Assembly: GCF_905475395.1 (NCBI RefSeq)
Contig: NC_058339.1
Span: 48,245,172 to 48,309,171, forward strand
Direction of reading: 5' to 3'
DNA from: Chrysoperla carnea
Taxonomy: Eukaryota > Arthropoda > Insecta > Neuroptera > Chrysopidae
DNA length: 64,000 nucleotides
Positions 44,746 to 61,495 of this stretch are shown here, in pieces. A program made the position numbers and the translations under genes. Every line of letters starts with the position of its first letter. The stretch's first letter is position 1. Under the pieces are notes generated by a model. It was not told the origin of the DNA. It did no database searches and worked only from the letters and a program-made list of their open reading frames with translations.

Positions 44746-47109
44746 ATTGCAACAACTGCAAATACAGCAACCAAGAATAAGTTAAATAAGAAGGTCTTAC
44801 AAGTTAAACAGGGATATTTGAATCCAATTACTTTCGAACACCACTGACAACGCAAATTTTTTTTTAACTTGCTATAGTAAGTACAAAAATCAAATTGAAT
44901 GCATACAGTTTGCCGGAAAGCAATTTTTTTTTTCAATCTAAAAACTTCGTTTTTTCTTTGATGTAATAACAGTCATTTTAAAAAGTAACAAATAGGTAAA
45001 AATTTTTCAATCAACAAATTCACAAACCACGAACTACAGTTTCTTAAGTGTCATAGAATGTTGGCGCCAAATGTCAATAAATACGATGAATTTTTTTCTG
45101 TTTGTTTGTTTCTTCTTTTGCTTTCAAATGCTAAGAAAAGTTCCGCCTTGATAATCATTTATGTATGTTAGGAATTTTTATTAAAAACTAGAAATGAACA
45201 CATTTATTTTCTTTTAAAAAAGTATTCAAAACACGAATGTGTGTGTTCAACAACAATTTTTCTCTGGTGGGCTTTAATGTTTTGTACCGGGTCGTTCTTA
45301 TAAGAACGTTATGAAACAAAAATATGTTATAGAGTTAACAAAGCTTTTTTAATACTAACGTAGCGACTGAGTTGATACATTTTAGGAAACCTAAACGCTG
45401 AAAGTAACGGGAAAGTGGCTTAAAAATTTTTACATCGAATAAATATATTAATTTATTTCGAAAATAGTTAATTCGGTCAGAAATAAAATTTTCAAACTTT
45501 AAATAAGTATTCAGATTAATGAATTTGAAATTTCATAATAAATTATATTAAATAGAAAAATTCTGTTTCAGAAAATCCCGAAATTTTAAAACTTCTTTTT
45601 AGTTTCTCGATATTCTAAATTTGATTAAAATCGAATCTCTGTAATACACAACAAAAATTTCAAGCATAATCTTTATTTCTTATGAAAATTAATCTCGTAC
45701 CACAGTGCGTCTATTATTTCAGTAATATCCAAGACTACAGTGTGAAACAAACGATAATATTTCATGAATAGTCTTTTTAAATTGAACGTCGTTATCACAT
45801 GTATGTTTCAGATTCTGAAGGAAGGTGTTAAAAAGCTTTGTGTTAAAAAAAGTTGATCTCCAATTTTTTTGTTTTTAGTACTAATAATCTTTTGAATTTC
45901 CCAACTCACATATTTTATTTGCCACTTTTCATTTACTTGATGAGTGAATTTTCTGATTTTTCTTTGTTGCTACTAAGTATAAATTTTCATACCTACTTTA
46001 CTGTGCAAAGCCCGTTTTTCACCCACGCTTCTATTCCTACTCCAGATGGGTATGTGATGCGTAGGTATTTTTTCATTTTAGTATAGTTTCACTCTTTATT
46101 TTTAAGGACATCGACTCCTTATCCTTTCAGCTCTTCACGCTCAAACTCCTTTTCAACTCTTCATGCCTTTTTTGTCTCTCCCTATATATTAACAAAGAAG
46201 TTGATATTTTTTTTCCTCTTTCGGTGTATCTTTGAGTTTGTCCAAGCTTTTCGAAAAAGCTCTTAGGTTTCAGATCTACAGTATATGTTGTAAAGAATCT
46301 CTCATTTTTCGAAAGCCCACATTAAATTTTAATATTTAATCATATAAAATTGAAATTCGTTTTTCAAGGCACACCTGGTAAAATGGAAAGTTGGCACATC
46401 TACATGTAAAATAATGAATTTACTATTGTGTGAGACAGCAACCAATCGGTATTCTCTTTTCATTTAAATTTCATGTCACAGTTAGTTATTTCGTTAGATT
46501 GATAAGTTTGAACTGTATGTATGTATATTGTGACACAAAAGACAATGGATGGAAAAGAAAGATTTGTGAGTGGTGTTGAATGAATTTGTCGTATATGTTG
46601 GTGTAACTGATAAAATATATGAATGTGATGATTCAGAAAATATACGATTTTCAGGGTTTTATATTATTTAAAATACATAGTAAATATATAAAAGAAAGGG
46701 TTTAAAATAATATATATTACTCTTATTTTGTAATGCAGGCATATAGTTATTAAATGACTTAGTTCACAATGTAAGTTTAAAAGTTGCTTTGAATCCATTG
46801 AAATTTAATGATAAAATATAAGGGTCTAAAATCATATATGAGTAGCTACCTGAAGTAACTTATGGATTCCATGATTTCCGAAATAAAATTAAGGAATAAG
46901 AAATAACAACATTTTTTTTTATTTATTTTTTTAAGTAAAGTAAATCTATATTAAAAACATATAAAAAAGATGAATACAAAATACCCGTTTCAGTAAAAAT
47001 ATGGGAAAGCTACATCGACACCTTATATGGTTTTGTTAAAAGTCTACTTAAAACTTTAAATAATAGAGAACCCTATTCGAGAGCGAGTTATATTCAACTG
47101 TTCTCATGA

Positions 47110-47182
47110 GGGGGTGTAGCTCAAATGGTAGAGCGCTCGCTTTGCATGCGAGAGGTACCAGGATCGATACCTGGCATCTCCA
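47110..47182 (+). tRNA. tRNA-Ala (anticodon TGC)
   Basis: This is a 73-nt cloverleaf. The acceptor GGGGGTG pairs with CATCTCC and includes the G3-U70 pair that marks alanine tRNAs. The D arm is GCTC/GAGC, the anticodon stem CTCGC/GCGAG, and the T arm CCAGG/CCTGG with loop ATCGATA. The anticodon TGC is at 47143-47145 and the discriminator base is A. A TTTTT terminator follows at 47192. It is the first member of a 167-bp tandem array and the only one with TGC. It differs from its neighbours by T instead of A at the wobble position. Confidence 0.93.
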
Positions 47183-47276
47183 TTTCTCAAATTTTTGTTC
47201 TTTTTCTATTTATATTTAATATTCAAATAATACAGAACTATTTTTGAAACTGAGTTATGTTCAAGTGTTCTCATCA

Positions 47277-47349
47277 GGGGGTATAGCTCAAATGGTAGAG
47301 CGCTCGCTTAGCATGCGAGAGGTACCAGGATCGATACCTGGCACCTTCA
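47277..47349 (+). tRNA. tRNA-Ala (anticodon AGC), slightly weakened acceptor stem
   Basis: This is the second array member, with the same body as the first copy but anticodon loop TTAGCAT, so it reads as AGC. The acceptor GGGGGTA against CACCTTC has G-U pairs at 2-71 and 3-70 and an A-C mismatch at 7-66. It is probably still foldable but weaker than copies 1, 3 and 4. The D, anticodon and T arms are intact, and a TTTTT terminator is at 47359. It could be a working gene or an early pseudogene. Confidence 0.83.
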
Positions 47350-47443
47350 TTTCTCAAATTTTTGTTCTTTTTCTATTTATATTTAATATTCAAATAATAC
47401 AGAACTATTTTTGAAAGTAAGTTATGTTCGAGTGTTCTCATCA

Positions 47444-47516
47444 GGGGGTGTAGCTCAAATGGTAGAGCGCTTGCTTAGCATGCGAGAGGTACCAGGATCG
47501 ATACCTGGCATCTCCA
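47444..47516 (+). tRNA. tRNA-Ala (anticodon AGC)
   Basis: This is the third array member. The acceptor GGGGGTG/CATCTCC keeps the G3-U70 alanine determinant. The anticodon stem CTTGC/GCGAG has one G-U pair and the loop is TTAGCAT. The T arm CCAGG/CCTGG is intact, the discriminator is A, and a TTTTT terminator is at 47526. It is spaced exactly 167 bp from the copy before it. Confidence 0.9.
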
Positions 47517-47610
47517 TATCTCAAATTTTTGTTCTTTTTCTTTTTATAATTAATATTCAAATAATACAGAACTATTTTTGAAAGTGAGTTAGATTCAAGT
47601 GTTCTCATCA

Positions 47611-47683
47611 GGGGGTGTAGCTCAAATGGTAGAGCGCTCGCTTAGCATGCGAGAGGTACTAGGATCGATACCTGTCACCTCCA
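47611..47683 (+). tRNA. tRNA-Ala (anticodon AGC), one T-stem mismatch
   Basis: This is the fourth array member. The acceptor GGGGGTG/CACCTCC is the best paired in the array and keeps G3-U70. The anticodon arm is CTCGC-TTAGCAT-GCGAG. The T stem is CTAGG against CCTGT, with one C-U mismatch and one U-G pair at its base, so T-arm stability is reduced. A TTTTT terminator is at 47693. It is probably functional but less certain than copies 1 and 3. Confidence 0.82.
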
Positions 47684-47776
47684 TTCATAATATTTTTGTT
47701 CTTTTTCTACTTTTAATTTATATTCAAATGATACCGAACTGTTTTTGAAAGTGAGTTATGTCGAGTGTTCTCATCA

Positions 47777-47849
47777 GAGGGTGCACCTCAAATGGTAGGG
47801 CACTCACTTAACATGAAAGAGGTACCTGGATCGATACCTAGCACTTCCA
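47777..47849 (+). pseudogene. tRNA-Ala pseudogene (fifth array copy)
   Basis: It aligns over the full 73 nt with the intact copies but is damaged. The acceptor is GAGGGTG/CACTTCC with an A-C mismatch, the D stem is broken (CCTC/GGGC), and the anticodon stem CTCAC/GAAAG mismatches at two pairs. The anticodon has become AAC. The T arm is nearly intact. It sits 166 bp after copy 4, in phase with the array, so it arose in the same tandem duplication and decayed in place. Confidence 0.8.
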
Positions 47850-47934
47850 TGCATATTATTGTGCTTAACTTCCATATTATTATCATTATATATTCTTTTA
47901 ATTTATATTCAAATAATACAGAAATACTAGATAT

Positions 47935-60491: not shown

Positions 60492-61446
60492 TTAAGCGCT
60501 AATTTGACGCCTGTTCACGTACGTCTGAGGTTTCGAAATCATAAAAGTTGAATTCCCAACTAAATATGCTTTCCATGTGTCTAGGTATTGAATAATATAT
60601 AAAACATATAAATTTCCTGGGTACTTTTCTTTTAAAGCAGCAACAGTTTTGTCTATAGCGTTTATTATTAACTTTTTAATTCCATCAAGCAGTCCAGTAA
60701 ACGTTCTACGAGATTCTATTTCAAAGTCATAAGCAGTTGAATTTCCAACTAAATACGCTTTCCATGCCTCTAGGTATTGAATAATATATGAAGCATATAC
60801 ATTTCCTGGATACTTTTCTTTTAAAGCATTAATAATTTCATCAATAGCGTGTATTAGTCGCTTTTTAATTCCGTCGAGAAGTCCAGTAAACATTCTATGA
60901 GATGCTACTCCAAAATCATAAAAAGATGAACCTGGAACTAGGTTTGCTCTCATTTCTTTTAAGAAATTGATTGCAAATTTGACAAATTCGTTTTCTAATT
61001 GAGGCTTTCTCAAAGCATTAATCGCTTTGTCTATAATAATTACAAGTTGTTCATTATGTTCTGTAATATATTCCAACCACTCAAATGGCTCTATTTTATT
61101 TTGAGATCTAGTATTTGTTGCAACAACATCGTTTTTGGGTTTCAGAATTTCTACTAAAAAAAAAATAAAACAAATCAAAAATTAAATTACTCGTATCACT
61201 GTATTCTAGAATGATTCGAAAAATTTTAAATTTTAACGTAAGTGAGGCTACTATTAGTTCATAGCCATTCAGATGGCATATTATCGAAAGTTTTTTTAAG
61301 TTCCTATTTAAATAAAATAAAAAGTTGTTAAAACTAAAATTTTTCCTAAGACTAATAATATTTTACTCACCCAAAGATTTTGGTTGTTCAGCCGCTTCTA
61401 CGTACCCAAAAGCTAAAAAAGAAACTATGATTATAACGATTTTCAT
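60492..61446 (-). CDS. Two-exon gene for a small secreted repeat protein of unknown family
   Basis: Exon 1 is 61446-61371 (76 nt) and exon 2 is 61153-60492, joined by a 217-nt intron with donor GTGAGT and a T-rich acceptor. The frame runs open through the junction and gives 245 residues. Residues 1-18 (MKIVIIIVSFLAFGYVEA) form a signal peptide with a likely cut after V-E-A, so the product should be secreted. After a short polar linker come helix-prone repeats. A divergent partial one covers residues 62-100. Two full 63-residue units start at the YDF motifs at residues 104 and 167, each carrying FTGLLDGIKK, ALKEKYPGN and YIIQYL. A third unit starts and then loses frame. Two NST sequons (residues 163 and 226) could be glycosylated. 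The start is chosen because it gives the signal peptide and lies about 40 bases below a TATA box. The nearest AATAAA on this strand is about 350 nt after the stop (60141-60136). I do not recognise the family. A salivary, gland or haemolymph role would be guesswork. Confidence 0.82.
60542..60920 (-). repeat. 189-bp in-frame coding repeat, two units plus the start of a third
   Basis: Unit one begins at the YDF codon at 60920, unit two at 60731, and a third would begin at 60542. That is an exact 189-bp (63-codon) spacing. The two full units share long identical peptides such as FTGLLDGIKK and ALKEKYPGN and differ by scattered substitutions, so the repeat arose by duplication and then diverged. 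In the third unit the expected run of five Ts before ATGATTT is four, which breaks the frame at exactly the repeat boundary. Confidence 0.8.
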
Positions 61447-61487
61447 TGTAAAAAAGCTGATTGATGCTTGATTTCGAAAATTCTATC

Positions 61488-61495
61488 TTTTTATA
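61488..61495 (-). promoter_or_regulatory. TATA box of the secreted-protein gene
   Basis: TATAAAAA on the minus strand lies 41 bases upstream of the chosen ATG at 61446. Counting about 30 bases down from it puts the transcription start in a run with ATCAAG and CATCAAT, which resemble arthropod initiators. That leaves a very short 5' leader of about 12-20 nt. A strong TATA promoter with a short leader suits a highly or tissue-specifically expressed secreted protein, but that is inference. Confidence 0.6.

Follow-up and report, generated by a model that had tools for sequence, protein, structure and literature searches.

A single-copy lacewing gene with three tandem 63-residue repeats that may encode a secreted amphipathic-helix protein

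Results

A 64,000-nucleotide stretch of the genome of the green lacewing Chrysoperla carnea (C3:48245172-48309171; hereafter the window, within which positions are counted from its first base) carries on its minus strand, at 61446-60492, a gene whose two exons encode a 245-residue precursor containing tandem repeats of 63 residues. Within the reach of our DNA and protein searches this is a single-copy gene, and the open reading frame of its second exon is coding sequence, past or present. Among the readings that we weighed, we tentatively favor a functional lacewing gene specifying a secreted helical-repeat protein that would probably bind lipid or membrane outside cells. An initial annotation of the window had already placed a two-exon gene at these coordinates, correctly as it turned out; its start codon, splice donor and acceptor are intact.

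The exon 2 frame (60492-61181) runs for 229 codons from stop to stop and is the longest of the 24 stop-to-stop frames of at least 80 amino acids in the window, the runner-up having 155 codons. In 60 simulated 64-kb sequences, generated by a first-order Markov model of the window's composition, the longest frame averaged 122 codons and did not exceed 156 in any. GC content at the three codon positions of exon 2 (0.42, 0.30 and 0.22) is coding-like, and the codon-position periodicity of the frame (0.0406) lies above the maximum (0.0229) recorded in 5000 random stretches of equal length drawn from the first 60 kb of the window. It is because the frame is open, its GC distribution coding-like and its periodicity beyond that of random stretches that we regard it as coding sequence, past or present. 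Frame length likewise agrees with the earlier remark that this is the only convincing protein gene in 64 kb, and a Pfam scan of 10 of the 23 other listed frames of the window returned no domain at the cut-off.

The start codon lies at 61446, and position 61370 marks the splice donor, GTGAGT. The intron closes with a poly-T tract and two acceptors that are three bases apart (AGTAG, 61151-61154), and so spans either 61370-61154 or 61370-61151; both preserve the frame and would yield protein forms of 245 or 244 amino acids, one residue apart. The GT-AG intron of the initial annotation is supported, and its signal peptide is supported insofar as exon 1 opens with a signal-peptide-like sequence, assigned by eye from its charged start, hydrophobic core and small residues at -3/-1. 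Small residues at these two positions are the rule for signal peptide cleavage. The TATA box that had been proposed is present, but it is weak evidence because the window holds 1.6 TATAAAW motifs per kb on each strand.

At the DNA level, a tandem array at 60531-60923 comprises 2.1 copies of a unit whose period is 189 bases. Its two close copies, 60735-60923 and 60546-60734, share 159 of their 189 bases and 45 of their 63 residues, and the protein holds three repeat copies in all, where two exact ones had been reported. The spacing of the repeats is exactly 189 bases, and the codon register is exact. In a tblastn comparison whose target was the window together with loci L001-L004, repeat 1 (61079-60891) matched repeat 2 with 35.8% identity and an expectation value (E) of 3.7e-7. 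Given that the rate of synonymous substitutions per synonymous site (dS) between these two copies is about 1.2, repeat 1 is much older. The register is lost past the last GNST motif; the final 17 residues have no match in the other copies, and the DNA array stops at 60531. This arrangement probably arose by two in-frame internal duplications: an older one, from which repeat 1 and the common ancestor of the other two repeats would descend, and a later one that would have separated repeats 2 and 3.

Residues 19-245 contain no cysteine and correspond to a protein of 26.1 kDa with an isoelectric point (pI) of 8.99 and NST sequons at residues 163 and 226. In the long helix of repeats 2 and 3, as well as at two windows of repeat 1, the hydrophobic moment exceeds the 95% level of shuffled 18-mers. 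AlphaFold, run without an alignment, predicted helices only, both for exon 2 (predicted local distance difference test score, pLDDT, 66.8; predicted template modeling score, pTM, 0.42) and for two repeats (pLDDT 75.2, pTM 0.47), and the same long-short helix pattern recurred in repeats 2 and 3 across both models. At moderate confidence, structure prediction thus agrees with the helical repeats described in the initial annotation.

We searched the C. carnea genome (559,487,470 bases in 337 contigs) for further copies. Two whole-genome protein searches, in each of which five candidates were scored, matched the gene's own locus alone. With the first part of exon 2 as the query, two additional matches emerged, one to the neighboring repeat (E 0.015) and the other, a chance match, in an exon of DOP1. 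At the DNA level the gene matched only itself, and the signal-peptide exon occurs in one genomic place only. Paralogs below about 35% identity could escape the protein search, in which repeat 1 against repeat 2 reached only E 0.015; the DNA search passes over very common words, and its single match does not prove rarity. Nor was a paralog found in the flanks, over 219.9 kb to the right and 70 kb to the left. Frames of at least 120 codons number nine in the right flank, where those of 235 and 197 codons, the longest, lie about 200 kb away, and three in the left flank. Such frames are few, and the setting of the gene is gene-poor.

No usable relative was found in Pfam, NCBIfam, PDB sequences, PDB and viral folds, IMG/VR contigs or GTDB genomes, in keeping with the initial annotation, which knew of no family with this repeat unit. 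These collections cover prokaryotes, viruses, structures and domain profiles, and the prokaryotic and viral ones are not expected to contain a relative. An hmmscan of the protein and its pieces returned no Pfam model at its cut-off. DUF5645 (PF18713), which has a cut-off of 26.8 bits, was considered and rejected: exon 2 scored 17.8 bits (E 0.0035, borderline) and pieces of the protein 12.8 and 19.4 bits (repeats 2 and 3 together E 0.0011, borderline), the borderline scores falling 7 to 9 bits short, and the five places listed when the genome was searched with this profile did not include the gene's locus. A transposon or viral protein was also rejected, as no transposase, integrase, reverse transcriptase or other mobile-element domain scored above its cut-off, the DNA and protein searches of the genome found one copy, and no relative appeared among viral contigs; the strong match to a known transposon protein that would have spoken against an orphan gene was looked for, and none was seen. 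As for bacterial transfer, none of 47 pattern matches in GTDB contigs was confirmed by tblastn at E 1e-3, a method that reaches close relatives only.

Table 1. Coordinates of the gene, its repeats and the ApoLp-III-like frames (window positions unless a contig is named)
Feature	Position	Strand	Remarks
TATA-like box TATAAAAAG	61487..61495	minus	41-49 bases upstream of ATG; read directly
Exon 1, coding part	61371..61446	minus	25 codons + 1 base; start MKIVIIIVSFLAFGYVEA, signal-peptide-like and presumed to be cleaved after residue 18
Intron	61154..61370	minus	GTGAGT...polyT-AG, phase 1; a second possible acceptor follows 3 bases later, at 61151
Exon 2, coding part including stop codon (60492-60494)	60492..61153	minus	open frame, periodicity
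Repeat 1, oldest, 63 aa	60891..61079	minus	36% identical to repeat 2 across 53 residues
Repeat 2, 63 aa (FTGLLDGIKK ... ALKEKYPGN ... GNST)	60702..60890	minus	sequence comparison
Repeat 3, 52 aa as far as GNST	60546..60701	minus	sequence comparison
C-terminal 17 residues	60495..60545	minus	repeat register not kept here
Three ApoLp-III frames	C5:4762509-4773738	minus	above family cut-off, inside ~11 kb

Discussion

Under the reading that we favor, the mature product would be a cysteine-free, basic protein of about 26 kDa (pI about 9) in which three 63-residue units follow one another in tandem. Every unit is predicted to begin with a long amphipathic helix (some 36 residues) and to continue through a turn at PGN into a second helix, which is shorter (some 17 residues), aromatic and hydrophobic. 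An NST sequon, a putative glycosylation site, ends repeats 2 and 3. Outside the cell, such a protein may open onto or coat lipid, membrane or another hydrophobic ligand, which would make it apolipoprotein-like in manner and, so far as tested, not by descent. Apolipophorin-III, an exchangeable apolipoprotein of insects and the nearest functional analogue that we considered, is a secreted, cysteine-free protein of amphipathic helices whose five-helix bundle opens on lipid. Our gene product likewise lacks cysteine, and it would resemble apolipophorin-III in its secretion, judged by eye from the signal peptide, and in the high moments of its predicted long helices; it differs in its three tandem 63-residue units and in matching no profile.

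Several observations weigh against a functional lipid binder. No apolipoprotein profile or fold matched the protein, and the second helices, although hydrophobic, have a low moment, a combination that suits burial as much as lipid binding. Confidence in the structural models is moderate by both scores, and the packing of the helices is therefore unreliable. The substitutions that separate repeats 2 and 3 fall 10/10/10 over the codon positions, the ratio of nonsynonymous to synonymous rates (dN/dS) between these close copies is about 0.56, and a test of amino-acid changes did not reject neutrality (P = 0.15). For the description of the gene as fast-evolving in the initial annotation, these results offer only indirect support. 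Finally, neither AATAAA nor ATTAAA was found in the 292 bases past the stop codon, where GATAAA alone was present among eight polyadenylation signal variants sought.

The low-moment second helix bears on an alternative that we consider possible and rank next, namely a secreted protein of some other tissue (fat body and hemolymph, midgut, accessory gland, or egg and silk secretion) that would act as a helical scaffold or protein-binding solenoid with no lipid binding; a packed solenoid would be in line with the regularity of the helical hairpins and the hydrophobic character of their second helix. The substitution pattern and the 3' region bear instead on a gene in early decay, formerly coding and now losing its repeat register and 3' end. 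The loss of register past the last GNST, the lack of a canonical polyadenylation signal within 292 bases and the weak evidence for constraint between copies are all consistent with decay. Against it stand the 229 open codons with their strong periodicity and the intact start codon, donor and acceptor, and an altered 17-residue tail need not abolish function. Moreover, 85.5% of neutral shuffles of the differences between repeats 2 and 3 create a stop codon, whereas the 30 real differences create none. This suggests constraint between the close copies, and does no more than suggest it because as few amino-acid changes arose in 15% of the shuffles. On balance we regard decay as unlikely.

Still less probable, and lowest in our ranking, is a strongly diverged apolipophorin-III or member of another known insect helical family that has moved past the reach of sequence profiles. 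The general make-up would be alike (secreted, cysteine-free, amphipathic helices), but hmmscan, run on the whole protein and on pieces of it, did not list apolipophorin-III (PF07464) up to an E of 10, and the family profile, run over the genome, recovered three frames above cut-off on C5 and a weak one on C1, the lacewing's own ApoLp-III-like sequences, and missed the gene's locus. Apolipophorin-III was also not among the fold matches listed, but the structural models are so uncertain that this excludes nothing.

A role as a component of the larval oral secretion (venom), injected into or spread on prey, overlaps the other readings as to tissue; we judge it unlikely, placing it below the scaffold and just ahead of decay. 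The gene comes from C. carnea, and green lacewing larvae are venomous. A C. carnea venom study (PMC12758981) reports seven uncharacterized core-venom genes without similarity to known families, of which our gene could be one, as well as apolipophorin-III-like venom proteins. The study also describes Iso-Seq and RNA-seq data from every life stage and from dissected tissues. The seven core-venom proteins resemble our gene product, itself presumably secreted, in coming from C. carnea, in being secreted and in having no known domain; compared by description only, several are described as disordered, whereas our product is predicted to be helical. The prior is low as well, because the venom genes number 281 among some 13,000 protein-coding genes. 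A fuller proposal, that the gene founds a new lacewing-specific family of helical-hairpin repeats with a fold absent from the PDB, grown by whole-unit duplication and lipid- or membrane-active in the larval oral secretion, appears to us a long shot.

Secreted genes without homologues seem usual in this group, since a study of the antlion Euroleon nostras reports many venom proteins without known homologues (PMC11319779). NA2 of this antlion offers a parallel, being a secreted orphan of the Neuroptera whose sequence contains internal tandem repeats, but those described are 14 glutamine-rich six-residue repeats rather than 63-residue helical units, and NA2 is described there as missing from the C. 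carnea genome (PMC11319779).

The lacewing gene is an ordinary kind of novelty, lone fast-changing secreted genes being common in insects. Unique secreted genes occur in most insect genomes, and for a gene of so common a kind interest hinges on expression and function. If expressed, it would offer a compact case of a secreted protein that lengthened as a two-helix unit duplicated in frame, an old and a young repeat copy being retained side by side in one gene, and it could shed light on the origin of new secreted proteins in a predatory insect used for biological control.

Additional observations

Elsewhere in the window, positions 47058-47850 hold a tandem array of a 167-base unit in 4.8 copies with four tRNA-Ala genes; the anticodon is TGC in the first gene and AGC in the remaining three. 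On another contig, a COX1-like frame of 542 codons (C1:138886126-138887466, minus strand) lies close to the end of contig 1 and contains no TGA. In insect mitochondrial genes TGA codes for tryptophan, and because it lacks TGA this frame is unlike an insect mitochondrial gene; it may be bacterial (symbiont) sequence that was inserted, or placed by the assembly, at this site.
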